Source: a bacterium
GTDB taxonomy: Bacteria > Bacteroidota > Bacteroidia > B-17B0 > Aurantibacillaceae
Assembly (NCBI GenBank): GCA_029945625.1
Contig: JAQSCW010000055.1
Coordinates: forward strand, 248,001-312,000
Length of the DNA stretch: 64,000 nucleotides
Direction of reading: 5' to 3'
Shown here: in pieces, positions 5,319 through 27,778 of the stretch
How positions within the stretch are numbered: the stretch's first letter is position 1
Layout of the letters: every line of letters starts with the position of its first letter
Position numbers and translations under genes: made by a program
The notes under the pieces: generated by a model
What the model was told of the DNA's origin: nothing
The model's input: the letters and a program-made list of their open reading frames with translations, nothing else
Databases searched by the model: none

Positions 5319-6365
5319 TCACTCCACAGCCGAAATCAGCATGAAACTGTGCTGATGGCCTTGAAAGGAATTGTAGACAAGCAGGTTTCGAAAAGTTGTT
5401 GAGCGGGCTTTGCGTTTTTCAAGAACTGCAGGTATTGTTTGTGTTTGCAGTATGTTGCAGCTTAACCAGAGGGCAAAAGAGGAGGCTGTGGGATATTCGC
5501 CGCAAAGATGTTTGAAGCGAAGCAGCCCCGCGTTTTCTCCAACTGTTGCTTCCATGGCTTCGTAAAAGGGGAGTAGCCGACGATCTCCGTTTTCTCCCGA
5601 CAAAACCAAATCTAACTGTTCGCCTTTCGGGAGGTGTTTTTCTAGAAAATGTTCAAGTTTTTTTTGAATTTCAGCTTCATCAGTACTATGACTAGTGAAA
5701 AGTGACGTAAACTTGGCAGTGGCCGATGTACGTGTGTTATTTACCAAAAACATAGCGGCACCTTCGCCGGCAATAGTGCCGTTGGTGCTAGAATTGAAGA
5801 GACGCTCAGCGCTTACTTCCTCTTTTTTATACCAGCCGGCTAACCAATCAATGTTATAGTTATAGCTGGAAATCTCATCGGCACCTCCAAGCAAATAACT
5901 AGCTGAAGGCTGTTCTGACAAGAGCATGACGACATCGAGCAGCGCATTTTCGAATGATAAACCACGATGAACATGCGTGTTGTTGTAGTTTTTGTTTTTC
6001 ACCATGAAGGCGATTTGTGAAGCCAAACCATTGGGAGTGCTCTGAACAAAATTTCCGGGAGTGAGCAAACCCTCCTCATATTGTACGATTTGATTCATGA
6101 ACTTGATGCTATCTTCCATGCCTCCATTTGCCGTACCTATAATTACACCGTCGAGTTGGGGATGTTTCTGAATGATGTGCAGGGCCGCGCCAACACTCAT
6201 TCGTACCGCTTTTCCCATTCTTCTGAGTACCGTGGGAGGAATACCTGCATATACCGGTTCAACGGCAAGTAATTTATTTCCCGAAATAATATTTGTGTTC
6301 TCGGGGCTTGATGCGAAGAGTTCATGAACCGGCGATATGGCAGCTATGTCGTGAATATAAAACAT
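5319..6365 (-). CDS. Ketosynthase-like partner without catalytic triad (chain-length-factor type), set B
   Basis: 348 residues from the ATG at 6365, two bases after the stop of the upstream ketosynthase; a longer frame exists but overlaps it. This is a paralogue of the protein at 76-1137, with the same losses: VHRGLSFENAL at the nucleophile site, LSGENGD in place of HGTGT, and GEY in place of GHT. Two such proteins, each directly behind its own active ketosynthase, show that an entire ketosynthase/partner pair was duplicated. The probable role is to set chain length or stabilise the elongating enzyme. Confidence 0.85.
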   Translation of the reverse strand: MFYIHDIAAISPVHELFASSPENTNIISGNKLLAVEPVYAGIPPTVLRRMGKAVRMSVGAALHIIQKHPQLDGVIIGTANGGMEDSIKFMNQIVQYEEGLLTPGNFVQSTPNGLASQIAFMVKNKNYNNTHVHRGLSFENALLDVVMLLSEQPSASYLLGGADEISSYNYNIDWLAGWYKKEEVSAERLFNSSTNGTIAGEGAAMFLVNNTRTSATAKFTSLFTSHSTDEAEIQKKLEHFLEKHLPKGEQLDLVLSGENGDRRLLPFYEAMEATVGENAGLLRFKHLCGEYPTASSFALWLSCNILQTQTIPAVLEKRKARSTTFRNLLVYNSFQGHQHSFMLISAVE

Positions 6366-6367
6366 GT

Positions 6368-7555
6368 TCAGGTCTTGGAAAAAACCAGTGAGGTGCAATT
6401 GCCGCCAAATCCGAACGAGTTTGAAAGCACATGTTGAACCTTTCTTCTTTCGTAGCTCAGATTTGGAATTAAGCTACTTGCAGGTATGGGGGACTGAAAA
6501 TGAAGCGCAGGATACATCTCTTGATGCACGATGTTCAAAACACTGTAAACAGCTTCAATGGCTCCGGAAGCGCCGAGCGTGTGACCAATGTTTGACTTGG
6601 TGGAAGCAAAAGCCGGTACTTTTTCAAAGACACGCAACAAGGCCGCGCTTTCAACTGCATCGTTATTTTCGGTGCCGGTGCCATGTGCATTAATGAAATC
6701 GATTTGTGAGGGAGAAAGGGAAGCTGCCTTCAGTGCCCCGCTCATAGCCAGATACGGACCTTCTCCGACCTCGGATAAAGATGACGGATGGTAGGCGTCG
6801 TTCTTATTGCAGAAGCCGCTCAATTCGGCGTATACTTTTTTTGATCCAACATCTTCTTCTTTTTCCAACACCAGAAAAGCGGCTCCCTCACCCAGATTAA
6901 GGCCCTTCCGCTGTTCGTCGAAGGGTTTGCATATTTCATTTGAAAGAATATTGAGGGAGTTAAAACCGTTTACTGTAAACTTCGAGAGGCTATCGCTTCC
7001 TCCCACAATGGCCCTTGTGGCATAGCCTTGTTGAATTAGTCGTGCCCCATACATTATGGCGTTGGCAGACGAAGAGCACGCTGTGTTAATGGTGTTAACG
7101 ATGCCCTGCAAATGAAATCGCGATTGAATGTACATATTCACCGACGCAAAGTCGTATGAAGCAAGGTATGCCGAACCATGAGATAAAAGGTTGGCGTCTT
7201 TATACATTTCATCGGTGAGGCACATACCACCTACCGTGTCGGCGCCAATAAAAGCCGTATCAGGGCTGCGGATAATTCCTGCCGAAAAACCGGCATCTTC
7301 CACTGCATCTTTAAAAGCGTGCAAGGTGAGCAAGCTTGTTCTGGTAACACCTGGCTCATGGGCGTTCAAGGTCTCTTCAAGTGATTCATTGCTGAATTTC
7401 ACTTCTCCAAAAGGCAAAAGTTCGGAGTATTTAGATTGTATAAAATTTCCTTTTGAAATGCCACATGTACCCGCTCTTAAGGCCATCAAATTTTGCTCCA
7501 CCGATGCCCCTATTGGACTAATAATGCCCATTCCAGTTATGACGATCTTGCTCAA
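6368..7555 (-). CDS. 3-oxoacyl-ACP synthase (FabF-type ketosynthase), set B
   Basis: 395 residues with an intact active site: C160 in NTINTACSSSAN, H291 in NAHGTGT, K320 and H325 in SNIGHTLGASGA. It has nearly the same length and motif spacing as the ketosynthase at 1137-2327 and is plainly its paralogue. The gene order ACP, ketosynthase, dead partner is the same in both sets. It condenses malonyl units onto an ACP-bound acyl or arylacyl chain. Which set extends the coumarate starter and which builds the alkyl chains of the resorcinol is not decidable here. Confidence 0.92.
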   Translation of the reverse strand: MSKIVITGMGIISPIGASVEQNLMALRAGTCGISKGNFIQSKYSELLPFGEVKFSNESLEETLNAHEPGVTRTSLLTLHAFKDAVEDAGFSAGIIRSPDTAFIGADTVGGMCLTDEMYKDANLLSHGSAYLASYDFASVNMYIQSRFHLQGIVNTINTACSSSANAIMYGARLIQQGYATRAIVGGSDSLSKFTVNGFNSLNILSNEICKPFDEQRKGLNLGEGAAFLVLEKEEDVGSKKVYAELSGFCNKNDAYHPSSLSEVGEGPYLAMSGALKAASLSPSQIDFINAHGTGTENNDAVESAALLRVFEKVPAFASTKSNIGHTLGASGAIEAVYSVLNIVHQEMYPALHFQSPIPASSLIPNLSYERRKVQHVLSNSFGFGGNCTSLVFSKT

Positions 7556-7564
7556 AATAAAAAA

Positions 7565-7828
7565 TCAGACCGTGCGATGCGTTTCAATGTAATCAACCAT
7601 CGTGTTTACACTCACCAAAATTTTACGTCCCTCTTTCGGATCGTGAATGTCGATGCCGTATTCTCTTTTCAACATCACAATTAATTCGAGAGAATCGATA
7701 GAGTCGAGCCCCAGACCTTCACCAAATAAAGGAGCATCATCCACAATCTCTTCCGGGGTGAGGGGCGAGAGGTTTAAGAACTCAATCATTTTCTTCTTTA
7801 CTTCCTGTGCGAGTTGTGTTTTTTCCAT
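7565..7828 (-). CDS. Acyl carrier protein, set B
   Basis: 87 residues with the phosphopantetheine site GLGLDSIDSLE (S43). It is closely related to the ACP at 2356-2616 over the central helix region. It lies 9 bp before the set B ketosynthase and 9 bp behind the ABC permease. It is the carrier for one of the two duplicated elongation modules. Confidence 0.93.
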   Translation of the reverse strand: MEKTQLAQEVKKKMIEFLNLSPLTPEEIVDDAPLFGEGLGLDSIDSLELIVMLKREYGIDIHDPKEGRKILVSVNTMVDYIETHRTV

Positions 7829-7837
7829 AGTTTTTAA

Positions 7838-9121
7838 TCAAATCAAGCGTTTTTGCCTCAGTCCGAAAAAAGTCAGCAATTGTAAAAATAGGATTATCCC
7901 AAGCAACGGCATTAGGCTCATGATAATGGTTCCGAAAGAGGCGTGACGAAGAAACAACCCGTAATATGATTCGAGACACCAATGCAAGGGTGAGAAATTG
8001 AGGATGGTTCTAAATGAATTGGGCATCGCAAAAGAGGGAACCAATATGCCTCCAATAGCGGCAAGGATCACCACTGTTATGGCTCCAAAACCGTTCGATT
8101 GCTCCTCAGTACGGGCAAAAACACCCACACACATGGCATACGACACGGCACACCAACCCGAAAAGAAGGTGATTAAAAATAATGCACCGGTGCTTTCGGG
8201 GAGAACAAGTTTTGGCAAATGCATGGCCGGAAATAAAAACACGCCGATCATAAATATTATTATGGTTTGTGAAATGGTAACAACAAGGTACGTAATTTGT
8301 TTTGAAAGAAGGGAAACCAAAAAGGACGTGGGAAGTGTTCTGAGTCGGAGAAAACTCCCGTTTGTTTTTTCTCTCACAATGCCACCACCCAAAGAGATTA
8401 CCACAAAAAACATGGCAAAAACCGTCCATGCAGGAATGTTGTGCTGGGTGGCGTTTGGTATAACGGCCATGCCATTTTGAGAAACAGTAATTTCTTTTAC
8501 GCCGGTTTGCCCTTCACGGATCATATTCTCCAGCGAATCGGGGCTGGCCTTTTCGTTGAAGTTCGCATACAGATTGTTCAGCAGTTGTTTGTTTTCCGTT
8601 AACTGTATTGCTCCATTCACAGCTCCTCGAATCGAATAACGAAACGATTCCTGCATCACAGGGTTATAATAAATGGTGACCAGCGAAGGGGCCATCAATT
8701 GCTTAGTTTGTAAGCGGTCGCCTGATATCCCTAAATCGTGGAGAATTTGCTCGGTGACCAGAATTGAGCTGGCCCTTATCTTTTCGGTAAAATTTGAGGG
8801 AATAAAAATGCCAACGAGAGCATCTTCTTGTTCCATCAAGTCATTTAACTTGATCGCGCCTTTCTGGCACTCTTTTTCTGTAATATCAAAGATCCCTGCT
8901 TTTTCGATTTGATCTCTGAACAGCCGGCTACATGCTCCGGTATCGGCATTGCACAACACGAGTGATACTTTATTGTTATTCACCAAATCAAATGTGCTAT
9001 TTTGCACCGCTGTGATCAGCACCGCTAATACAATGGGCATTCCAAACATGAACAGCAAACCTACTTTGTCGCGTGTTAGAAGGAGAAGATCTTTTTTTAA
9101 TGTCGCCAACAACTTACCCAT
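7838..9121 (-). CDS. ABC-2 type transporter permease
   Basis: 427 residues. One N-terminal membrane helix (about 22-40, GLLFMFGMPIVLAVLITAV) is followed by a large extracytoplasmic domain (about 45-225) and a C-terminal block of five or more hydrophobic segments from about residue 230. This is the ABC-2/YhgE-like export permease layout. It overlaps the ATPase gene by 8 bp and must be its partner. In flexirubin loci such an exporter is thought to move the pigment or a precursor towards the outer membrane; the substrate here is inferred from context only. Confidence 0.88.
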   Translation of the reverse strand: MGKLLATLKKDLLLLTRDKVGLLFMFGMPIVLAVLITAVQNSTFDLVNNNKVSLVLCNADTGACSRLFRDQIEKAGIFDITEKECQKGAIKLNDLMEQEDALVGIFIPSNFTEKIRASSILVTEQILHDLGISGDRLQTKQLMAPSLVTIYYNPVMQESFRYSIRGAVNGAIQLTENKQLLNNLYANFNEKASPDSLENMIREGQTGVKEITVSQNGMAVIPNATQHNIPAWTVFAMFFVVISLGGGIVREKTNGSFLRLRTLPTSFLVSLLSKQITYLVVTISQTIIIFMIGVFLFPAMHLPKLVLPESTGALFLITFFSGWCAVSYAMCVGVFARTEEQSNGFGAITVVILAAIGGILVPSFAMPNSFRTILNFSPLHWCLESYYGLFLRHASFGTIIMSLMPLLGIILFLQLLTFFGLRQKRLI

Positions 9122-9869
9122 TTTCTCTGCTATACTCTTTACCGGTTAATGAAATAAAGAGTCCTTCAAGTTCTTTTTCTTTGTGTTGATCCAATAACTG
9201 CGTAAGGCTGTCGTGGGCAATGATCTGCCCCTCGTGCATCAGAGCAATCGTTTCACAGAGTTCTTCTGCTTCGCTTAACTGATGAGATGTGTACACCAGG
9301 GTAGTACCGTCCTCATTGAGTTTTTTGAGGTAGGTCATTATGGCCTGGCGCGTTAGAACATCAACCCCAACGGTGGGTTCATCAAGAAATAAAATGCGAG
9401 GCTGGTGCATCACGCCAATGGCCAGATTTACTCTGCGTTTCATGCCTCCCGAAAGCTGTCGTACTTGTTTGTAATCATCCAGTTCCAAAATCTCAACTAA
9501 CTCCTCCGTTTTTTTTTTAACCGCAGGTCTGTTCATTCCCGCCATGGCACCAAAAAATTCAAGATTTTCGGAGGCAGTGAGCTCCTGGTAAAAGGCAAAA
9601 TCCTGGGGGACAAACCCAATGAATTTTTTTATTTCTTTGAGATTATTTTTGAGTGAATGACCAAATACAGTAATATGCCCTTCCTGAGCGGCAAGCAGCC
9701 CTGTCATACAACTCATGAGGGTAGTTTTACCGGCACCGTTCTGACCAAACAATCCAAAGCGCTCTCCGGATTTTATACTCAGCGATATATTCGAAAGACT
9801 CTTCTCCGATTGACCCGGATAAGTGAATCCAAGGTGTTGGATTTCTATGGCAGTTGAATTTACTGCCAT
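9114..9869 (-). CDS. ABC transporter ATP-binding protein
   Basis: 251 residues with every nucleotide-binding motif: Walker A GQNGAGKTT (42-50), signature LSGGMKRR (139-146), Walker B ILFLDEPTVG (159-168) and the switch His in TSHQ (H196). The sequence type (ABC-2/CcmA-like subfamily with VDVLTR after Walker B) matches drug and polyketide exporters. It powers the permease encoded immediately downstream. Its stop overlaps the permease start, and its own start lies inside the end of the BtrH-like gene, so all three are co-translated. Confidence 0.93.
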   Translation of the reverse strand: MAVNSTAIEIQHLGFTYPGQSEKSLSNISLSIKSGERFGLFGQNGAGKTTLMSCMTGLLAAQEGHITVFGHSLKNNLKEIKKFIGFVPQDFAFYQELTASENLEFFGAMAGMNRPAVKKKTEELVEILELDDYKQVRQLSGGMKRRVNLAIGVMHQPRILFLDEPTVGVDVLTRQAIMTYLKKLNEDGTTLVYTSHQLSEAEELCETIALMHEGQIIAHDSLTQLLDQHKEKELEGLFISLTGKEYSRENG

Positions 9870-10873
9870 TTTATTTTGGATAATTCTTTAAACGCTTTTT
9901 TTTCCAGTTCGAAAATGTTCAAGAGGTGATCGCCCACGGAATCAAAATCCTTTTGACTGCTTAAACGTCCTTTATAGATGCCGGAAGCCTGAACTGCTGC
10001 ACTACGCCATAGGTCTCCCGACTGCGTGAATAATTTAGATATTTCGGGGAGTGCCTCCTGCTGGTGATAAGTGTAAGATTGTTGTAAGAAGGCTGCATAA
10101 ATATAACGAAAGCCCCCGCCTCCTGTTCCAATTTCTTCCTGCATGCGTACCAATTGGGCAAGGTACAATCCGGCTTTTTCCAAGCCCAGTTTATCGCGCC
10201 ACTTCTTTATTTTCTCGCCCGTATATCTGATGCCGCGAACCCCCGCAATATTTCCGGGAATGTATAACATATCGCGTACGTTTCGTTTGATGCCGATGGC
10301 GATGGCTTTTTTTATTTTCTCGTCGCTGATGTCGCCTGTTTTTTTGGGATAATAAACCTGACCTCTTGGCGCCAGCGCACCTTTTGCGAATCGCACCCTT
10401 TCTAGTTCGTAACTACTCAGTTTGGTTACATGTTCCATCACCGGATCACTGATCAAAAATTGATCATTTTCTTTTCCATACACAATGATATTGTGTGCGT
10501 TAAAATGAAAGCGGTATTCTTTCGGAAAATAGCTAAGGTAATAAACCCCTACCTGGCAGCCAACCGGTTGTCCTTCAGCGATGCGCTCTTCGAGAAATTT
10601 CGCTGCTTCCTTTTCAGAACTGAATTTTTTTCGGATCACCTCAATGCCAAGATTCTCACAGGTTCTTTTGAAAATATGACCGGGCATAGTTCTGAAGGCG
10701 ATGGCAGGTCCGTTGTTGATTTTTAAAAATGGGAGATACACGTAAAAAAGTCCCGAACCAATTCCGAATGCCAAGGGCTCAGTAAGTTTGTTCACCCCCA
10801 CATTTTGAAGTAATTTAGTGGTTACCCCATTTTCACAGTGAGCGGCCTGCAAATGTTGAAATGTGCTATTCAT
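9860..10873 (-). CDS. BtrH-like protein (candidate ACP acyltransferase)
   Basis: 337 residues. The N-terminal 150 residues look like the BtrH/cysteine-protease-like fold: H12-C13-E-N at the start, then HFNAHNIIVYG with H127, and D143 in LISDPV, which would form a Cys-His-Asp set. BtrH of butirosin synthesis moves an acyl group from an ACP to an acceptor amine. The C-terminal part (160-337) is alpha-helical and unassigned. In a flexirubin locus the product is an ester of a polyene acid and a resorcinol, so this is a reasonable candidate for the joining step. The family call comes from motifs and remembered occurrence in such loci; the function is inferred. Confidence 0.7.
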   Translation of the reverse strand: MNSTFQHLQAAHCENGVTTKLLQNVGVNKLTEPLAFGIGSGLFYVYLPFLKINNGPAIAFRTMPGHIFKRTCENLGIEVIRKKFSSEKEAAKFLEERIAEGQPVGCQVGVYYLSYFPKEYRFHFNAHNIIVYGKENDQFLISDPVMEHVTKLSSYELERVRFAKGALAPRGQVYYPKKTGDISDEKIKKAIAIGIKRNVRDMLYIPGNIAGVRGIRYTGEKIKKWRDKLGLEKAGLYLAQLVRMQEEIGTGGGGFRYIYAAFLQQSYTYHQQEALPEISKLFTQSGDLWRSAAVQASGIYKGRLSSQKDFDSVGDHLLNIFELEKKAFKELSKIKWQ

Positions 10874-11270
10874 GCGTATTTAGGGTCTTAAGGTCTTCGA
10901 TGGTAATGTTAAATGCTCGGGCGTATTTTTCAAGGAGGCGCGGCCCCAATTTTTGAAACACCTCGGGTTTTAAATGACGTCTGATTTGCCATTTCCATAA
11001 TCCGGTATAGGCCGACAGGATGTCGATGTCCATGAGTCGCCATTCCATAAAAAACAAAACAGGGCTGACTTTTTTGTCTACCACTTTTTTTCGCACCGAC
11101 TCGATCCGCGCATGAATATTTTTCCAAGTGGCGTCCAGAGCTGTGGTTTTCACGTCCCATCCACTGCTGAGATCGGTTATATAATTGCCTTTCTCGTCAA
11201 CAACATAACACATCTCTCGTGTAAATTTAGAGAGGGCGCCGCTATCTTGAGGTAGGTCTTCTTTTTTCAT
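10866..11270 (-). CDS. Small HTH-like protein of the flexirubin-type operon
   Basis: 134 residues, cytoplasmic, no signal peptide. The C-terminal half (about 80-130) reads like a helix-turn-helix of the Xre type: DILSAYTGLWKWQIRRHLKP, then an LGPRLLEKYARAFNI helix and IEDLKTL, resembling the start of a lambda-repressor-like domain. The first half has no motif I recognise. It overlaps the BtrH-like gene by 8 bp and lies 22 bp behind darB. It could be a regulator or a structural partner of the pathway; I cannot name a function with confidence. Confidence 0.6.
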   Translation of the reverse strand: MKKEDLPQDSGALSKFTREMCYVVDEKGNYITDLSSGWDVKTTALDATWKNIHARIESVRKKVVDKKVSPVLFFMEWRLMDIDILSAYTGLWKWQIRRHLKPEVFQKLGPRLLEKYARAFNITIEDLKTLNTHE

Positions 11271-11292: not shown

Positions 11293-12438
11293 TTACACAA
11301 CGGTGAGCAAAGCATACATATAGGAAAATCTGCTACTTTCAGGAACCAGAAGTAAAATCTTATTTCCTTCTTTTAATTTTCCCGATTTAAATAATTCGTC
11401 CACCATCAAATACACCGATGCCGCTCCTACATTTCCCACCTGACTGAGATTCACGAACCATTTATCATAAGGGATTGGGGTGCCATTCTCGATCAGTCGG
11501 TTGTAGATCTTATCTTTAAAGAACTCGCTTGACATGTGCGGCAGAAAATAATCCACTTCTTCCGATTTTAAGTTGTGTTTTTCAAGCACTTTTTTTAAAC
11601 CGTCACCCCCTAGTGGAATTATATACTTGCTCAATAGTTTTACATCCTGCTTAATGGTGAGCAAACTTTGGGCTAAGATATCATGGGGACTGAAATCGCG
11701 GTATCCCTTGATGGATCCATCTTTTAACTTTTCTGCACCCATATACATACATGCCTCCAAATGATTGGCGTATGAAAATCCTTCTATCCACTCCACGCGA
11801 AGACTAATACCCTTTTCGTTTGGTTTGCTCGATAATAAAAAAGCCGAAGCCCCATCCGATAACATCCACCTCAGGAATTCTTTTTCAAATCCGATATAAG
11901 GGTCGTTTGAAAGTTCTTTCAGTTTTTGAGCTTCTTCTTCAAAGTTTTCCGACATCAATGAAATAGCCAAGCGTTCGGATCCTGTGGATACAGCATTTTC
12001 AACTTCTCCGGTGCGCACCGCCATAAACGCGTATTTAAATGCATGCATTCCTGCGCAGCATACGCCCGCCGGCGAAACCACCTCAATGGCTTCCGTTTCA
12101 GGAAGAAACCCATGGGTCATCACCGCATGGGAAGGCATCATTTGATCGGGAGAAGAAGTTCCGCAACTTAGAAGGCGAAGGCTTTTTAACTCTTCGGGAG
12201 TTTTGAACAAGCCCCGTATTGCCAGAGCAGTCATTTCAGCATTTGTATGTGTGGCTTTACGCTCTTTATTAAGTGCGTAAAATCTTCTTTTTATCCCATT
12301 GTTCCTTAATACAATGGCCTTTGACTTTGAAGGGGTATTGTTGATGAAGCCCAAATAATGCTCCATGTCGTCGTTCATCACCGGCTCGTTCGGAAAGAAG
12401 GTAGAAGTTTGAGTAATATATACAGGTTGTAGCGACAT
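11293..12438 (-). CDS. darB: DarB-type ketosynthase III (dialkylresorcinol/cyclohexanedione-forming)
   Basis: 381 residues, FabH/KAS III fold. Catalytic residues are visible: the Cys in SPAGVCCAG (C128 best fits, C127 is adjacent), H301 in FLPHMSSEFF and N336 in SQVGNVGAAS. DarB enzymes condense and cyclise two fatty-acyl-derived thioesters to a cyclohexanedione carboxylate, the resorcinol core of flexirubins. The assignment is supported by the DarA-type gene 10 bp upstream in the same operon. The alternative, an ordinary FabH, is unlikely because the length and the CCAG motif differ. Confidence 0.85.
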   Translation of the reverse strand: MSLQPVYITQTSTFFPNEPVMNDDMEHYLGFINNTPSKSKAIVLRNNGIKRRFYALNKERKATHTNAEMTALAIRGLFKTPEELKSLRLLSCGTSSPDQMMPSHAVMTHGFLPETEAIEVVSPAGVCCAGMHAFKYAFMAVRTGEVENAVSTGSERLAISLMSENFEEEAQKLKELSNDPYIGFEKEFLRWMLSDGASAFLLSSKPNEKGISLRVEWIEGFSYANHLEACMYMGAEKLKDGSIKGYRDFSPHDILAQSLLTIKQDVKLLSKYIIPLGGDGLKKVLEKHNLKSEEVDYFLPHMSSEFFKDKIYNRLIENGTPIPYDKWFVNLSQVGNVGAASVYLMVDELFKSGKLKEGNKILLLVPESSRFSYMYALLTVV

Positions 12439-12448
12439 CGTTCAGAAA

Positions 12449-13348
12449 TTAATTTACGCCTGAGTAATAACGTTTTTGTTCGGCAATTCGTTTCGTCAAA
12501 AAAGGTTTAAACAACACAGCATCCACACTCAGTATAATGGGCGCCGCAATAAATAAGGCGATTAGTAAATAGTATTTGTAGACTTGAAGCCAGAAGTTTT
12601 TGTTTTTGCGTTTGGAAATAAAAGCTGCCCACACGGCAAAGATACGTCGCGCTTTAGATTCAATGAACATCAAATTGTATTTTATCTCCACGGCACCGCT
12701 TTTTAAAAGTTCGTCCTGCATGCCTTCAAAATTACCCATTTTGAGATAGGGTCCCACAATGGTACCGAATCTCGCGGCATTCAAAACATCTTGCTGTGAA
12801 ACACCCGGAGGGGGAAAAATGTTTAGGAATTTGTCTTTTTTAGCGGTCAGCATCCAATAGAAAATAGTAATAAAACTGATCAGATTCGCGTGCCTGTCAA
12901 CTAGGGCAATATTGCCCACCAACTTTGCATCTTGATTTTTTAAGCTGGTTTTGATTCGCTCCATGGCGCTGATCCACATATTTCTAGCGCCCGTGAGGGT
13001 AATTACCGGTGTATTTTTGAGAATTTTCTTTATTTCCGGATCTTGAAGAATGGAATTGGAAGGGATGCTGGGGGAAAGAAACCAAGCTTGGTAGCCAAAT
13101 ACCACCAGATCGTAGGACGCAGACTTCAGCTCAAAAGGTTGAAGGGGAGTGGGAACCCCATGCACACAGTTGGGCATCACCGTAAAAAATGAATTTCCTT
13201 TCCAAGGAAACGGATAGGGCGTCTGCGGATAAACACGCAGCCATTCCAACTGATGACCGGCATCTGACAAGGGTTTGCAAAACTCCTGAAGAATATTTTC
13301 AAGTTGCCCCGATTGTGTATAATAGATAACCAGTACTTTTTTACTCAT
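12449..13348 (-). CDS. darA: DarA-type dialkylresorcinol condensing/aromatising enzyme
   Basis: 299 residues. The N-terminus has a flavodoxin-like phosphate-binding loop (KVLVIYYTQSGQ, T11-Q-S-G-Q) and the DLVVFGYQAWFLSPSIPS segment of FMN reductase-like folds. The C-terminal 60 residues contain a hydrophobic helix (YYLLIALFIAAPIILSVDAVLF), so the enzyme may sit on the membrane. DarA acts with DarB to give the aromatic dialkylresorcinol half of flexirubin. The gene directly precedes darB and overlaps the upstream small exported protein by 8 bp. Confidence 0.85.
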   Translation of the reverse strand: MSKKVLVIYYTQSGQLENILQEFCKPLSDAGHQLEWLRVYPQTPYPFPWKGNSFFTVMPNCVHGVPTPLQPFELKSASYDLVVFGYQAWFLSPSIPSNSILQDPEIKKILKNTPVITLTGARNMWISAMERIKTSLKNQDAKLVGNIALVDRHANLISFITIFYWMLTAKKDKFLNIFPPPGVSQQDVLNAARFGTIVGPYLKMGNFEGMQDELLKSGAVEIKYNLMFIESKARRIFAVWAAFISKRKNKNFWLQVYKYYLLIALFIAAPIILSVDAVLFKPFLTKRIAEQKRYYSGVN

Positions 13349-13907: not shown

Positions 13908-14810
13908 TTAAGCCCAAAAGTCGTAAAAATTGAACCATTGCGTCGGATATTTTTTTACAATTTCCTCAAGGTCTTTCACATACATATCAGAAGCAGCGCG
14001 TATGGCCACTTCCATTTCCTCCCTGGTGCGCGCGCGCTTTACCTCAATGGCTTTCCGGGCGTAAAAATGATAGCGGTTAGTGCTGTCTTTCATGCTAAAC
14101 ACCACGGTGATGGGGACTCCGAATTTGGCGGCCATGATAAAAGGTCCTGCCGGGAATTTTGCCGGCTTTCCAAGGAAATTCTTTTCAATTGTTTCTGCAC
14201 CCTCTAAATACCTGTCGCCATGCATTACCAGAAGTTCTTTGTTTCTAAAGGCCTCATGAAGCTGCACCAGATGGCTCATATCGCCGTCTCGAATAGCAAT
14301 GACGTTGAATTTCTTTTGCCCCAAAATTTTCGACATAAATTCCTTCATGTGCTCTACCTCATTATCGTACATTAATACGTTAAATTTGGTTTCCAAACGC
14401 TCCAGTTTTTGTCCGGCTATTTCCCAGTTTCCCACATGCGCACTCAGTAAAATGCTGCCTTTTTGAGGATCTTTGAGGTGTTTGAGATTTTCTTCATACC
14501 CCTCGTGTTCAATAATAAAATTGGTTTTGATGCCTGAAAGAAGAGCTACTTTATCTAACAGTACTTGCCCAAAAAGGTAATAATTTTGGTAGCAGGCTCT
14601 CCATGCTTTAACCCCGTGGTAGCCATGAATTTGCCGAAAATAGCGGAGCGAAGTTTTGGTAGATCGGGCAGTAATGAGAAAGTGAAATGCTACAAAACGC
14701 AGAAAAAAATAAGAGATTCGGAGACCGAATGTTTTAAGGATAAAGACGAAGATCTTATGCCCTGTAAGTCCCCCTTTTGTTCTGCCTTCCCACTTTTTAT
14801 TTCCCGGCAT
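13908..14810 (-). CDS. LpxL/HtrB-like acyltransferase
   Basis: 300 residues, the usual length of the lauroyl/myristoyl acyltransferase family. It has an N-terminal hydrophobic region (about 20-48) and the signature SAHVGNWE with H125 and E130 as the catalytic pair, then MHGDRYL around 213 and FPAGPF further on. Family members transfer acyl groups from ACP to lipid A. Aryl polyene and flexirubin loci contain a dedicated copy that is thought to acylate a lipid or the pigment itself. It ends 69 bp before the next gene and starts 7 bp after the ACP. Confidence 0.87.
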   Translation of the reverse strand: MPGNKKWEGRTKGGLTGHKIFVFILKTFGLRISYFFLRFVAFHFLITARSTKTSLRYFRQIHGYHGVKAWRACYQNYYLFGQVLLDKVALLSGIKTNFIIEHEGYEENLKHLKDPQKGSILLSAHVGNWEIAGQKLERLETKFNVLMYDNEVEHMKEFMSKILGQKKFNVIAIRDGDMSHLVQLHEAFRNKELLVMHGDRYLEGAETIEKNFLGKPAKFPAGPFIMAAKFGVPITVVFSMKDSTNRYHFYARKAIEVKRARTREEMEVAIRAASDMYVKDLEEIVKKYPTQWFNFYDFWA

Positions 14811-17103: not shown

Positions 17104-18630
17104 CTATATTTTGCTTTTCAAAAAGGCAATGATTTTTTCCTGATCCTTATACTTAACCGTATCAATCTTAAATGCGGGAACCAACGTACGCAAATCGCGG
17201 TAATAGGCTAATGACTGCCCCGCTACTTTCGGTAGGTTGTTCAAATAGTCAAGGGCCTGGATGATCGCCAAAAATTCAATCGCGATTACTTCGTAGGTGT
17301 TGTTGATCACTTTTTGCGTGATAAGAGCGGCATTGGCTCCCATGCTCACAATGTCCTGATTGTCGTTATTACTGGGAATACTATGCACATACATGGGAAA
17401 ACTCAAGGTTTGATTTTCGGCAGTGGTGGAGGTGGCCGTAAACTGAACACCTTGAATGCCAATATTGAGCCCTAATGTTCCCAAATTAATAAATGGAGGC
17501 AGAATGCCGTTGAGTTTATCATTGAGGAGAAAATTCAACTGACGTTCGCACAACATCGACAATTTTGTGATCACAATTTTCAACTTATCCATTTCAAGGG
17601 CAGGATAATCGCCGTGAAAATTTCCACCGTGAAACACGTTTTTGTTTTCGTAATCAATAATGGGATTGTCGTTTACCGAATTGATCTCATTAATGATTAC
17701 CTCTTCGGCGTAGGCAATCGTGTCGCTAATTGCCCCAACAATCTGGGGCACACAACGAATGGAATAGTATTCCTGTACTTTATCCTTGAGTATATTTTCT
17801 TTGATGGGTGCCCGATACAAGTGTTTTTCACGTTTCTTAATCAATTGGCTGTCTTTCAAAAACTCCTGCATTTTTTTAGCGACCTCATTCTGTCCCTTAT
17901 GGTATTTCACCGAGTTTAATTCGTCCGAAAAATGATCGTCGTACGACTGAACAATCTCAACAATCATGCTCGTGGCAGCAATGGAATGTTTTACCAGGTT
18001 TCGGGCATGGATGAGATTCACCAAACCTATGCCGCACATGGCCGAGGTGCCGTTCATAAGGGCAAGGCCCTCGCGAATATGAACTTGGAGAGGAGTAATT
18101 TTTAATGCGTCAAATACAAGTTTGGTTTCTTGAACCTTCCCCTCGTACGTTACTTCGCCTTCACCAATGAGCGTCAAAGCCAAATGCGCCAATTGCACCA
18201 GGTCGCCACTCGCCCCCAACCCACCATGTTCGTAAATTACCGGACAAATATTACGGTTAATGAGTTCTTTTAAAAGTACCACTGCATCGGGGTGGATCCC
18301 CGAATACCCGCGCATGAGCGTGTTTAAACGGGCAAGCATCAATCCTTTTACGTTCATGGCGCTGATGGGCTGGCCGCTACCTGAACAATGACTCCGGATG
18401 AGATTGTATTGAAGCTCAATTTGATCATGGTCGCTTATTTTATACTGTGCCATCGGACCAAAGCCCGTGTTCACACCGTAGATCAATTTGTCTTTGATAA
18501 ATTCCTTTAAAAAAAAGTAGCTTTGGTACACGTGAGACAAAGCATGTTCGTCCAGTTCAACGGAGGTGTCATGAATTAATATTTTATAACAATCATCAAA
18601 TGTAAGTTTACCACCGCCGAGCTTTACCAT
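17104..18630 (-). CDS. Tyrosine ammonia-lyase (aromatic amino acid lyase, MIO type)
   Basis: 508 residues. The MIO prosthetic group would form from A140-S141-G142 in GGLGASGDLVQL. The catalytic Tyr (Y51) lies in YGVNTGFGPMAQY, and the selectivity region is YNLIRSHCSGSGQ with H81. The wording of these blocks closely follows what I remember of the Flavobacterium johnsoniae tyrosine ammonia-lyase, more than histidine ammonia-lyases. It deaminates tyrosine to 4-coumarate, the aryl starter of flexirubins, as shown for Chitinophaga pinensis. A histidase activity cannot be excluded from the sequence, but the locus argues strongly against it. Confidence 0.9.
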   Translation of the reverse strand: MVKLGGGKLTFDDCYKILIHDTSVELDEHALSHVYQSYFFLKEFIKDKLIYGVNTGFGPMAQYKISDHDQIELQYNLIRSHCSGSGQPISAMNVKGLMLARLNTLMRGYSGIHPDAVVLLKELINRNICPVIYEHGGLGASGDLVQLAHLALTLIGEGEVTYEGKVQETKLVFDALKITPLQVHIREGLALMNGTSAMCGIGLVNLIHARNLVKHSIAATSMIVEIVQSYDDHFSDELNSVKYHKGQNEVAKKMQEFLKDSQLIKKREKHLYRAPIKENILKDKVQEYYSIRCVPQIVGAISDTIAYAEEVIINEINSVNDNPIIDYENKNVFHGGNFHGDYPALEMDKLKIVITKLSMLCERQLNFLLNDKLNGILPPFINLGTLGLNIGIQGVQFTATSTTAENQTLSFPMYVHSIPSNNDNQDIVSMGANAALITQKVINNTYEVIAIEFLAIIQALDYLNNLPKVAGQSLAYYRDLRTLVPAFKIDTVKYKDQEKIIAFLKSKI

Positions 18631-23635: not shown

Positions 23636-24808
23636 TTATTCTCCTTTATTCAAAACAGGAGTCGCGTAAATCTTCAAAAAGACGTGTTCCAGCACTTCCG
23701 GCTCGCCTGTTAACTTGAGGATGTTCTTCGACATGTAGTCAACAAATCCCTGTTTCTGCTCAGGGGTATATTTTGCCGCGCGTTTATAGGAATGTTCGAG
23801 TAAATCGGCGGCTATGTAGTTTACGGGATTACATTTAAACTGCTCGTAGAGTTTTTTGTCGATGATGGTCGCAAAGGCTTTGATCTTGTCATTTTCATTT
23901 TCAAATTTATCGATCGCAGTCAATTCTTTTTCGGTAAACGGTGCGCCCACACTCATGTGAATCTTCCCTTTAAACTGACGGATCCCCGTTACTATACTAT
24001 TGAGGTCTTCGCCCGGTGCCTTGGTATACCTCGTGTGCAGGTTACTTAGGTAAATTTCTTGTGTTTTTAAATAATCACAAGGCTCGTATTCGTATGAAAT
24101 GGAAAGCGGCACAATATTTAATTTGTTAAAATTCTCAACAAAGTGGTGTTTTTTGCCGCTGATGTTCAGCATTTTTAACAGTCCGCTTTGCGTAAAATCT
24201 CCTCCGTCCTTAGTGCGCCCATTCCTTTGGGCGATCCAAACCGATACGTTCTTGTCGAGGATGCTATGACGAATATAAGCCGATAATTTTCTGGAGATTT
24301 CATACAATTCTTTACTGGTTCCTTCTCTCAATACCGTAAACATGCGGTTGAGTTTACCAAAGTCGGTAATAAAACCCTGTTCTCTTAAATTGCTCCCGAA
24401 TGATATTTCTGACGTCTTGAAGCCATGCTCAACCAGCAGAACCTGCAAAATAGCCGCATCCAATAAAATATCGCGGTGGTTGGCAATGAACAAATAACTC
24501 TTGTTGGGATCAAGCTGATCAAATCCATCACTGCTGAGGCCGGAGGAACTTAGTTCTAAAATCTTGCGAATGGCCGCATGCATAAATTCCAATTGAAACT
24601 CATAACTTGAATGAATGTTTTGAGATTTCTTTTTTACTTCTTCAAAAGTCATCTCAGGCCAGAGATTTGAGATGAGTTGCATAAAAATAAGGTCCTTGAT
24701 GATCCTCTGAAGCATAGGTTGTACTTCGTGGTCGTAGTAGGGCCGGATATCATCGAAGTTAAACTCCTTCGCAAAATCACTTATAACTCTGTTCTCGTGG
24801 CGTATCAT
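23636..24808 (-). CDS. PlsC/PlsB-like 1-acyl-glycerol-3-phosphate acyltransferase family protein
   Basis: 390 residues. The acyltransferase motif NHRDILLD lies at 110-117 in a SYLFIANHRD context, followed by GSNLREQGF and, near 195, VWIAQRNGRTKDG (motif III-like). The roughly 90-residue N-terminal helical extension and long C-terminal helical part make it longer than PlsC. It overlaps the preceding ligase gene by 32 bp, so the two are translationally coupled. Given its company, it may esterify the pigment or a lipid anchor rather than serve bulk phospholipid synthesis; that part is inference. Confidence 0.8.
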   Translation of the reverse strand: MIRHENRVISDFAKEFNFDDIRPYYDHEVQPMLQRIIKDLIFMQLISNLWPEMTFEEVKKKSQNIHSSYEFQLEFMHAAIRKILELSSSGLSSDGFDQLDPNKSYLFIANHRDILLDAAILQVLLVEHGFKTSEISFGSNLREQGFITDFGKLNRMFTVLREGTSKELYEISRKLSAYIRHSILDKNVSVWIAQRNGRTKDGGDFTQSGLLKMLNISGKKHHFVENFNKLNIVPLSISYEYEPCDYLKTQEIYLSNLHTRYTKAPGEDLNSIVTGIRQFKGKIHMSVGAPFTEKELTAIDKFENENDKIKAFATIIDKKLYEQFKCNPVNYIAADLLEHSYKRAAKYTPEQKQGFVDYMSKNILKLTGEPEVLEHVFLKIYATPVLNKGE

Positions 24809-26075
24809 CCTCTAATTTATTTGCTCGGTTATCAATAAATTTCTGCGCTTTTCTGCTATTTCCGGGGAAAAGCAATTTGTGGACCTGGTCGGGGGAAAGG
24901 ACACTGAGCTTTGGTACCACCCTCAACTTTGCCCTAAAGGTATCAGTTATTTCGGAAATGAACAGGTTTTCATGAGGATCCAGGCCAACAAAAATAGTGA
25001 TCTCATCGGTTCCCAGTTCATTCGAATCAATTACGATTTGGTAATTCTTAATAGCGGCGTGACTTTCAAGAATATCATACACCGCCGCGGGATACAAACT
25101 GGTACCCTTTAATTTGATCATTTGATTTTTCCGTCCCAAGAGCGGACTCAATCGCAATCCTTTTCTGCCGCACTTACAGGGCTCCGAATGTGCCATGCAA
25201 ATATCACCGGTTTTAAAGCGCAACAAAGGCATACCCTCAACACCTAAGGGTGTCACCACTAATTCACCGGGTTCTCCCTCCTTCACGACCCGGCCATTTT
25301 CATCCACTAACTCCACAATGATGAGGTTCTCCTGGTGATGACCACCCACCGAGTATTCACATTCGGTAAATGCACTCGACATTTCGGTACTGGCATAGGT
25401 AGAAAACAATTGAAGGGGCCATTTTTCGGTGATCTTCCTTCCAAGGGCATTCAGGCTATTGTCAGCATGACGAATTGCCTCACCAATGCAAATCACTTTT
25501 TTTACTGAGGTTTTTTTAAGGTCGATGTGATTAGCCTCTGCATAATGTATCATCTTATTTAAAAATGAAGGTACCGCAATCAACACAGTGGGTTTCATTT
25601 CCTCTATCGTTGTCCATTGCAATTCGGGAAGTCCATTTCCAACACGAATAATGCCCGCACCTAATTTACGGGCTCCTAAAAAATAAGCAAGACCTGCCAT
25701 AAACCGCCGGTCGATAGTGCACATCAACTGAATGATGTCATCGGCGTGAATGCCCGCTATTTTAAATGAATTAGATTCATTCTCAGCCAAACGTTCCAAG
25801 TCAGATTCTGTCAGCGAAAGAGTAATTGGTTTTCCGCTCGTACCCGAGGTGCTCACATGGTCAATAAGTTTGTTTCGGGGCACACAAACAAAATCGGCTT
25901 GTCGTGTTTGCAGATCTGCTTTATGGGTGAAGGGTATTTTTTGAAGGTCAGAAATGGTTTTGATCTTCAGAGGGTCAATGCCGTTTTTTTTAAAGAGGTC
26001 TTGATAGAATGCCGAATGAAGCGACAGGTAGCGCATCAAATCAACTAATGGTGTATGCTCCGCAGTGGTGTTCAT
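24777..26075 (-). CDS. PaaK-type adenylate-forming ligase, candidate 4-coumarate activating enzyme
   Basis: 432 residues, the size of phenylacetate-CoA ligase. It has the AMP-binding loop STSGTSGKP (75-83), the YASTEMSSAFTEC motif (227-239), and a Cys-rich stretch CMAHSEPCKCGRKG (about 294-307) typical of the PaaK group. In flexirubin synthesis 4-coumarate from the ammonia-lyase must be activated and loaded on an ACP, and this is the only ligase in the window. Whether it delivers to CoA or directly to ACP cannot be told from the sequence. It overlaps the C45-type gene by four bases. Confidence 0.87.
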   Translation of the reverse strand: MNTTAEHTPLVDLMRYLSLHSAFYQDLFKKNGIDPLKIKTISDLQKIPFTHKADLQTRQADFVCVPRNKLIDHVSTSGTSGKPITLSLTESDLERLAENESNSFKIAGIHADDIIQLMCTIDRRFMAGLAYFLGARKLGAGIIRVGNGLPELQWTTIEEMKPTVLIAVPSFLNKMIHYAEANHIDLKKTSVKKVICIGEAIRHADNSLNALGRKITEKWPLQLFSTYASTEMSSAFTECEYSVGGHHQENLIIVELVDENGRVVKEGEPGELVVTPLGVEGMPLLRFKTGDICMAHSEPCKCGRKGLRLSPLLGRKNQMIKLKGTSLYPAAVYDILESHAAIKNYQIVIDSNELGTDEITIFVGLDPHENLFISEITDTFRAKLRVVPKLSVLSPDQVHKLLFPGNSRKAQKFIDNRANKLEDDTPREQSYK

Positions 26076-27778
26076 CGGTAATTGTTAAGATCCAGTTCAT
26101 TGATTAGCCAAATTAGGTTATCAGCTTCCTTTTTTGTGGCCACTTCCTTCGTTAAGGCTTTCGTGTAAGCCCTTTGTGCGTATTCCGTATTTTTGATCTT
26201 CAAATAATAGTCGCCCAGAATCTGATACGTAAGGTAAGACTCGGGGTTACATTCCTGAATAGCCCTGATAAAGCGAAGTTCGGCAACAAGATGAAAATCG
26301 CTCTTGGTGCAAAAGCTGAAATAATCTTTTAATTGTTTGAAAAGTAAAAATTGACGATAGGATGTTGATTTCAAAAACGGGTCTTCTGCAATTGTCCTAT
26401 TCTCTTCATTGAGTTCTTTTTTCTGATTGAGGCCCGGGGCTTCTTCAAAGATCTTGTTCAGATCATAACACACATATTCTCCCAACTGAAACGGAGAGGT
26501 AGAAACCCATACCAATAGTTCTTCCGGTTTAAAAATTATAGAATGATGTGCGATGAGCTGATTGATCCCCTTTTCGTTGCTCAGCCCTATCTTATCACCA
26601 TGAAGCCCGTCTTGATTTCTCAATATGAGAGCCACTTCTTCGGGAGAAAAGGAGCGGTTCTTGCCAAGGAGTTCTTCCACTCTGAATTTTCGATACAACG
26701 AAGAACTTTCTACGATGTTCTTGTTATTAGTGTAATCTTTTTCAAATAATTTGCCTCTGAAATGATTGCTGCATATTAACTGTTCACCGGATTCCTCAAA
26801 GAGGTCGATACGTGTAGGGGTTTTTTCAATGCTTGCTGTTTTTTTATCAATAGCCGATCCTATAAGTATGGATTCAGAAACAAATGTTTGTCTTTTTTTT
26901 GCAATGGCATATGCCTGCTCGATGGTGCCCGCATACTGCAGGATTTCTTTGGCCAAAAGAGAAATTGGCGTTGCCGCACTACTTGGTATATCTGATTTAG
27001 CGGCGTTAATGGTAACGGTGAGCCCCTTGTCGTTCATGCCCGAAACCACTCCGGTAAAGCCGGCCCAAGTTACATACATAAATTTATTTCCAAATTTAGG
27101 TTTGGTGAAGCATACAATTTTATTGTGTGCAAAATCCTGCCCCGCAAAAAAATCGAAGTTTCTCCCAATCAGCAATTTACCATCTTTGGTTTTTCCGTTC
27201 CGGAGTCCAAAAGAAGTACATCCCACCGTCATGTTTTTGTCTTGCAGGGCATGTCCAATATCGTGAGCGCTGTGGTAATTAAGAATCCGGTAGTACTTGG
27301 GGGCCAATTGGTCGTATTTATCGCTTGCACTCAACGAAACGCCATAAATCTCCTGTGCATATTCATCGCTGATGTGTTGCGGCAAATGACGGTTAAAATA
27401 GGCCACAAAGTATTTCAGAAAATTTAGATAGTGTTCGGAGGGGATAAGTTGTTTGATTTGATTTATAAAAACATCCTCTTGGTATTCTGCCAATTCACGC
27501 GTTAATTTTCCGTTAATAACACCTCTTTCAAAACCATCGCCCTCAAGATACATTTCCCATAAACCTGAATTACTTTTTTTGAGCCAATTGTGACCCACTT
27601 TGTAAAAATCAATTGCAACAGTTTCACGCGTTAACTTTTCAACGGAACGGTCTTTAATCTGAGGAATGGAAATATGGATGGCTGCAACAAAATAGGCCAG
27701 AAAACCGGCGAATAAAAGCACCAAGAAAAGAATTACCCTCACTGAAGTTCGAAGAATTCTATTTCTGATCTTTAGCAT
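26072..27778 (-). CDS. C45-type (acyl-CoA:6-APA acyltransferase-like) Ntn hydrolase with membrane anchor
   Basis: 568 residues. One N-terminal membrane helix (about 14-34) puts the rest outside the cytoplasm. The Ntn-hydrolase nucleophile is probably C187 in MTVGCTSFG, which would become N-terminal after self-cleavage, followed by RNFDFF (206-211), TWAGFTGVVSGMN and GLTVTINAA, all typical of the C45/phospholipase B-like family. The last 80 residues resemble TPR helices. Members act on amide or ester bonds, and homologues are regular in flexirubin loci. It may form or trim the ester bond of the pigment in the periplasm; this is inference. Confidence 0.8.
   Translation of the reverse strand: MLKIRNRILRTSVRVILFLVLLFAGFLAYFVAAIHISIPQIKDRSVEKLTRETVAIDFYKVGHNWLKKSNSGLWEMYLEGDGFERGVINGKLTRELAEYQEDVFINQIKQLIPSEHYLNFLKYFVAYFNRHLPQHISDEYAQEIYGVSLSASDKYDQLAPKYYRILNYHSAHDIGHALQDKNMTVGCTSFGLRNGKTKDGKLLIGRNFDFFAGQDFAHNKIVCFTKPKFGNKFMYVTWAGFTGVVSGMNDKGLTVTINAAKSDIPSSAATPISLLAKEILQYAGTIEQAYAIAKKRQTFVSESILIGSAIDKKTASIEKTPTRIDLFEESGEQLICSNHFRGKLFEKDYTNNKNIVESSSLYRKFRVEELLGKNRSFSPEEVALILRNQDGLHGDKIGLSNEKGINQLIAHHSIIFKPEELLVWVSTSPFQLGEYVCYDLNKIFEEAPGLNQKKELNEENRTIAEDPFLKSTSYRQFLLFKQLKDYFSFCTKSDFHLVAELRFIRAIQECNPESYLTYQILGDYYLKIKNTEYAQRAYTKALTKEVATKKEADNLIWLINELDLNNYR

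Follow-up and report, generated by a model that had tools for sequence, protein, structure and literature searches.

A BtrH-type protein, DarH, as a candidate for the ester joining of the two flexirubin halves in a Bacteroidota gene cluster

Flexirubins have a long history as taxonomic markers; their polyene and dialkylresorcinol (DAR) halves are joined by an ester. Which enzyme makes this joint is the question raised by the locus described here, a stretch of 64,000 nucleotides from a Bacteroidota genome (contig JAQSCW010000055.1), which we call the window. A first-pass annotation had put forward a BtrH-like protein of the window as a rational candidate for forming the ester, of equal standing with an LpxL-like protein and a C45 protein encoded nearby. 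As far as the accessible portions of the open-access literature go, only FlxW has been tentatively proposed to join polyene and resorcinol, and no paper giving the ester step to the family of the BtrH-like protein (DarH) was found in the open-access literature searched. Here the question of joining can be put directly to the test, as one short gene offers a named nucleophile, a fold template and a clear genomic prediction. The analysis below leads us to regard DarH as the best current candidate for this step.

DarB, DarG, FlxA, FlxB and FlxY are encoded in one locus and each scores above its NCBIfam cut-off; the window therefore holds a flexirubin cluster. The window genes given here are all on the minus strand. 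In order of transcription, an LpxL-like acyltransferase (13908..14810; PF03279) and a small protein of unknown kind are followed by darA (12449..13348), the resorcinol-forming ketosynthase gene darB (11293..12438; NF053539, 617 bits, cut-off 550), darG (10866..11270), darH (9860..10873), an ABC transporter ATPase (9114..9869; PF00005), an ABC-2 permease (7838..9121; PF12698), an acyl carrier protein (ACP) that could carry the acyl donor of DarH (7565..7828; PF00550), a ketosynthase (6368..7555; PF00109 and PF02801) and a chain-length-factor-like ketosynthase (5319..6398; PF13723). The darG product is a small protein with an HTH/XRE-like C-terminal domain (NF053545, 183.5 bits, cut-off 170). 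The window DarA had no match in Pfam or NCBIfam; it was called the DAR aromatase on the strength of its position and of its homologues, which lie beside darB in other dar loci, with the function taken from the Azoarcus dar table in the accessible part of PMC3949708. Further genes of the cluster include flxA, encoding the tyrosine ammonia-lyase for the polyene starter (17104..18630; NF053541, 813 bits, cut-off 700), flxY, encoding a putative acyl-CoA ligase (24777..26075; NF053551, 641.4 bits, cut-off 520), and the gene of a C45 autoproteolytic acyltransferase/hydrolase (26072..27778; PF03417, NF040521). Just upstream of the window (L164:12570-16442) lies the gene of a 1290-aa protein that combines an MMPL-type exporter, a PlsC-type acyltransferase and a methyltransferase; GT2/DUF2062 glycosyltransferase, LolA and LolB2-like genes stand beside it.

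The darH gene has an ATG start and encodes 337 amino acids in the BtrH-type order of domains, with BtrH_N (PF14399) in residues 12-144 (170.1 bits, Pfam cut-off 29.7) and DUF4872 (PF16169) after it in residues 156-331 (183.2 bits, cut-off 28). No other BtrH_N domain was matched in the source genome. The protein is a member of an already named NCBIfam family, NF053550 (DarH_acyl, "BtrH-related acyltransferase DarH"), which it matches with 457.7 bits over residues 5-331 (cut-off 300); the ester role proposed here is thus a testable assignment within that family and no new kind of system. The residues C13, H127 and D143, pointed out in the first-pass annotation, are indeed present, and the Cys and His proved to be conserved in homologues, as did the Asp: each of the three is identical in 54 of 54 aligned DarH proteins, a set made up of the window protein, eight from other Bacteroidota genomes and 45 from named genomes. 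The segment R243-M-x-E-x-I-G-T-G-G-x-G-F-R is likewise invariant at its lettered positions across the set. When six distant sequences were added to the alignment, five aligned at the Cys and His and kept both, while four reached the Asp column and three of these kept the Asp.

The predicted fold was examined next. The AlphaFold2 model of DarH, built from an input of 29 DarH sequences, had a mean pLDDT of 91.1 and a pTM of 0.90, and the best 19 rows of a Foldseek search against the PDB were entries of AziU2-U3, CtaG and CcbD (E 1.2e-10 to 9.1e-8). Alignment with VIA-align extended over the full length of the model for CtaG (Z 24.5, rmsd 3.4, 295 residues), the AziU2-U3 entry (Z 23.6) and CcbD (Z 21.4). 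C39-type peptidase domains reached at most Z 14.1 over about 120-160 residues (132 residues for Z 14.1). The deposited CtaG variants are C11A, H128A and D144N, and the likely catalytic His and Asp are 16 residues apart both in CtaG (H128/D144) and in DarH (H127/D143), a likeness of fold and spacing; the two proteins share 12% identity. Sequence searches gave no link to solved structures: phmmer with DarH against solved structures returned nothing at E <= 1, the DarH profile retrieved only designed coiled coils, apolipophorin and shikimate dehydrogenase, and two distant BtrH proteins retrieved only unrelated structures. Since these searches miss CtaG, CcbD and AziU2-U3, the tie of DarH to them is one of fold.

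The acceptors and products of these relatives differ from those proposed for DarH. The acyl acceptor of BtrH is an aminoglycoside amine; for DarH a phenol would take this place, and a polyene would be the acyl group. According to the accessible part of PMC10318531, BtrH of butirosin biosynthesis is an ACP:aminoglycoside acyltransferase and the BtrH_N family is close to C39. CtaG of closthioamide biosynthesis is described, in the available text of PMC6772006, as a peptidyl transferase that would move a hydroxybenzoyl group from one carrier protein to another, and the lincosamide synthetase CcbD (CcbD/LmbD), in that of PMC12945683, as a Cys-His-Glu ping-pong enzyme that passes acyl groups of carrier proteins, fatty acyl groups included, to its Cys and then to an amine. 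The third residue is Glu in CcbD and Asp in the putative triad of DarH. CtaG and CcbD make amides, starting from thioesters of carrier proteins; the product proposed for DarH is an ester. Phenol O-acylation by the CtaG/CcbD fold was not found in the accessible portions of the open-access literature.

From these features we consider it likely that DarH is an acyltransferase of papain-like fold that depends on a carrier protein and joins both flexirubin halves, probably as an ester. The finished aryl-polyene chain would be handed from an ACP, the presumed donor, to Cys13 to give an acyl-S-enzyme. His127, oriented by Asp143, would activate a phenolic hydroxyl of the dialkylresorcinol as the putative acceptor, and the activated hydroxyl would attack the thioester in a ping-pong manner and release the ester, which would then be exported. 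The earlier view of the protein as a rational candidate is supported by the triad common to all 54 proteins, by the full-length fold match and, with few exceptions, by its presence together with both DAR and polyene genes, the reaction itself being a prediction. If this assignment is true, the BtrH/CtaG/CcbD fold would gain phenol ester formation as a further reaction, and darH would become a genomic marker that helps tell makers of polyene-DAR hybrids from makers of one half.

A BtrH-like gene also occupies the same place in the operon of a presumed ester maker. The accessible part of PMC3949708 gives the gene order of Azoarcus sp. BH72 as darA, darB, darD, darE, darF (ATPase), two genes, darI (permease), darC (ACP) and darJ (ketosynthase), tabulates darE as a 'BtrH-like peptidase', and proposes from mass spectrometry a pigment in which a polyene is ester-joined to a dialkylresorcinol. 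The window darH is likened to darE by this order of genes, and the ATPase, permease and first ketosynthase of the window are by the same order darF-like, darI-like and darJ-like. By position, DarG and DarH of NCBIfam correspond to Azoarcus darD and darE. These names clash with those of Azoarcus, where, in the text available, darG is a prevent-host-death gene and darH a PilT-domain gene.

The immediate neighbours of darH are shared to different degrees. In the window, overlaps of 8 bp between darG and darH, 10 bp between darH and the ATPase gene, and 8 bp between ATPase and permease genes agree with the earlier description of darH as co-translated with the exporter. The arrangement is not general, however, as 40 of the 54 DarH loci have a matched ABC ATPase gene directly after darH in the same orientation and no ABC gene was matched within the 20-kb stretches around darH in genomes G017 and G206. 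A closer companion is darG, which lies just upstream of darH in 53 of the 54 loci, often with a 4-bp overlap; the exception is genome G193, where it stands about 12 kb from darH and beside darB. AziU2 occurs together with AziU3 in entries 8gs1 and 7wuw, which raised the idea that DarG is an AziU2-like partner, and we therefore modelled it. The predicted structure (pLDDT 84.5, pTM 0.64) had its best structural rows with HTH/XRE domains at about residues 66-130 (Z about 10), and AziU2 gave no row among the matches listed. It is possible that DarG is an enzyme partner of DarH or a regulator of the pathway. That DarG, and often an ABC transporter, travels with DarH is a pattern that fits any function special to polyene-DAR hybrids.

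The distribution of darH was compared with that of darB and of PF13723, the latter a stand-in for a polyene cluster and no proof of one. In the set of 148 Bacteroidota genomes, DarB and DarH each exceeded their cut-offs in nine, and these were the same nine genomes (in G017 on different contigs). The polyene marker was present in these nine and in one more genome, G118, which carries a flexirubin-type polyene cluster with FlxA, FlxB, LpxL-like, C45, FlxY, exporter and LolA matches (L254, L255). The G118 stretches (37 kb) had no DarA, DarB, DarG, DarH or ABC match, and genome-wide no DarB exceeded the cut-off; the polyene of G118 may have a different partner. A wider sample came from a scan for a GC-rich DarB motif, which gave at least 119 loci in at least 118 named genomes and is non-random. 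DarH exceeded its cut-off in 45 of 118 named genomes among the matches listed (18/50, 21/50 and 6/18), including Variovorax, Rhodocyclaceae, Azoarcus, Pseudomonas, Moraxellaceae, Eikenella, Terricaulis, Desulfobacteraceae, Chitinophaga, Terrimonas and Prevotella. The DarB HMM was applied to 50 of the 118, namely the 45 with DarH and five that had DarA and DarB matches in their 8-kb locus but no DarH over the cut-off. All 45 DarH genomes had DarB (44 over the cut-off and G153 with a partial match), and 44 of them had the polyene marker, the one miss being a metagenome-assembled genome (MAG), G247. Further DarB genomes may have been missed because DarA can lie outside the locus (L063, L136; DarB-like proteins of 36-39% identity). 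The search for the polyene marker covered 100 of the 118, with 18 DarH-negative genomes outside the count. Among the matches listed, it was present in 22 of the 50 other DarH-negative genomes whose pattern locus had no DarA match, and DarH was present in 0 of these 22.

Fisher tests were strong but ignore shared ancestry, the genomes not being independent. Pairwise distances of DarH and DarB were correlated (r 0.96, 28 pairs), with none of 2000 permutations giving a value as high. With few exceptions, darH occurs in genomes that have both DAR and polyene genes and is missing from those with one of the two sets; G178, G252 and Bacteroides ihuae carry the marker and a DarB-family gene but no DarH over the cut-off. 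Most of the ester makers considered here are presumed from their genes. We find it marginally probable that DarH, probably with DarG, is a joining module common to Bacteroidota, several proteobacterial classes and Desulfobacterota, one that would link a polyene thioester and a resorcinol into an aryl ester and represent a phenol O-acylating branch of the fold.

The exceptions deserve attention. Among the matches listed, five genomes with a DarA and DarB locus lacked DarH over the cut-off: G198, G199 and G217, in which the polyene marker was missing, and G252 and G178, in which it was found. Distant DarH relatives below the cut-off were present in G198 (89 bits) and in G252 (82 bits), the latter a MAG in which the relative lies elsewhere and the DarB contig is 8.3 kb long. 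G178 is a Pseudomonas with DAR genes and an aryl-polyene-type cluster on different contigs; the accessible part of PMC8719888 reports that the dar genes of P. chlororaphis make 2-hexyl-5-propylresorcinol, and G178 would therefore fit separate products. In the 14 control genomes no DarH was found, while one of them, Bacteroides ihuae, had the polyene marker and a DarB-family match at E <= 1e-80; one of two controls, B. ihuae or Caulobacter vibrioides, exceeded the DarB cut-off. B. ihuae may have a lone darB, which is suggested by gut and oral Bacteroidales plasmids that carry darB without a DarA match. Conversely, the DarH genomes G159, G173, G206 and G218 had DarB and no DarA match in the stretches examined, so that their acceptor may be something other than an aromatised resorcinol or darA may lie elsewhere. 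B. ihuae and these four genomes slightly lower our confidence in DarH as the joining enzyme and in the wider reading of a common joining module, and the explanations based on LpxL-like proteins and on acyl supply gain slightly. In two Prevotella-type MAGs, darH, darG and darB adjoin (L274 of G206, L056 of G159) and the polyene marker lies elsewhere in the genome.

It is important to weigh the other acyltransferases of the cluster, since LpxL-like and PlsC-like proteins share clusters with DarH, which counts against DarH as the joining enzyme. Both the LpxL-like protein and the PlsC domain of the exporter fusion upstream of the window belong to acyltransferase families, and either might make the ester at the membrane and leave to DarH another task specific to hybrids, such as transfer of the polyene between carriers. 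A search of 29 chosen genomes matched LpxL-like proteins in 21 of the 22 that have DarH, and 0 of 5 marker-negative Bacteroidota controls had a match; intermediates of E. coli apeD and apeJ deletions are thought to be impaired in lipid attachment (accessible part of PMC8253772). However, ApeD and ApeJ serve the polyene lipid of E. coli, LpxL-like proteins also occur where DarH is missing, in G118 (without DAR genes) and in G178, and the weak proteobacterial matches may represent other genes of the LpxL family. Moreover, G099 has DarH and DarB and no LpxL-like match, its contig ending near the cluster (L250, L251). LpxL-like and PlsC-like families seem to go with the polyene and not with the resorcinol, and we consider it unlikely that they make the ester. 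Joining by the C45 protein, from a family whose members are named acyltransferase/hydrolase, or by the ligase-like FlxW, put forward by Schoner 2014 (PMC3992019, accessible part), is considerably more doubtful: C45 was matched in 14 of the 54 DarH genomes and unmatched in the other 40, G099 again among the latter with its contig end close to the cluster, and it also turns up in G118, a genome without DAR genes. The equal standing first given to the LpxL-like and C45 proteins was accordingly not upheld.

Two explanations would give DarH a role away from the joint. The first makes it a C39-like peptidase or thioesterase that serves the adjoining ABC transporter, consistent with the described closeness of BtrH_N to C39, the structural matches of C39 domains to DarH (up to Z 14) and the ATPase downstream of so many darH genes. 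Yet CtaG, the AziU2-U3 entry and CcbD are far better matches than C39 and cover DarH as a whole with its helical C-terminal domain, Pfam Peptidase_C39 has no match in DarH at E <= 0.001, where PF14399 and PF16169 are the only domains found, and the 20-kb surroundings of darH in G017 and G206 have no ABC match; we regard such a role as improbable, a shade more so than joining by C45 or FlxW. The second notes that darH lies in a dar operon that includes an ACP and a ketosynthase, which would suit a protein that provides the acyl chain for making the resorcinol or channels it there, but a DAR was obtained when darA and darB of C. pinensis were expressed elsewhere (cited in PMC3992019, accessible part), so that DarH seems unneeded for the resorcinol, and the five genomes with DarA and DarB that lack DarH over the cut-off among the matches listed argue in the same direction. 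To this last alternative we give very little credence. The assignment of DarH to the ester joint accordingly stays our preferred reading.

Some further observations concern plasmids and the C45 family. DarB-like proteins at E <= 1e-20 were found in eight plasmid records, of which four were examined, and DarH was present in 0 of 4. In Bacteroidales plasmids of gut and oral origin (L041:13347-14489, L042:14008-15150 and L043:19935-21071), the darB-like gene stands beside a regulator gene and the DarA profile had no match on the three stretches; its product is possibly a signal molecule. Among the plasmid records that matched DarH, 45 of 56 were from Acinetobacter, and a distant BtrH-domain gene occurs on Acinetobacter plasmids; in the one examined (L234:5980-6951) two thioesterase genes adjoin it and a gene for a cytochrome P450 lies close by. 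Finally, a C45 match in G107 (C80:159239-160891) contains one TAA inside the matched stretch.
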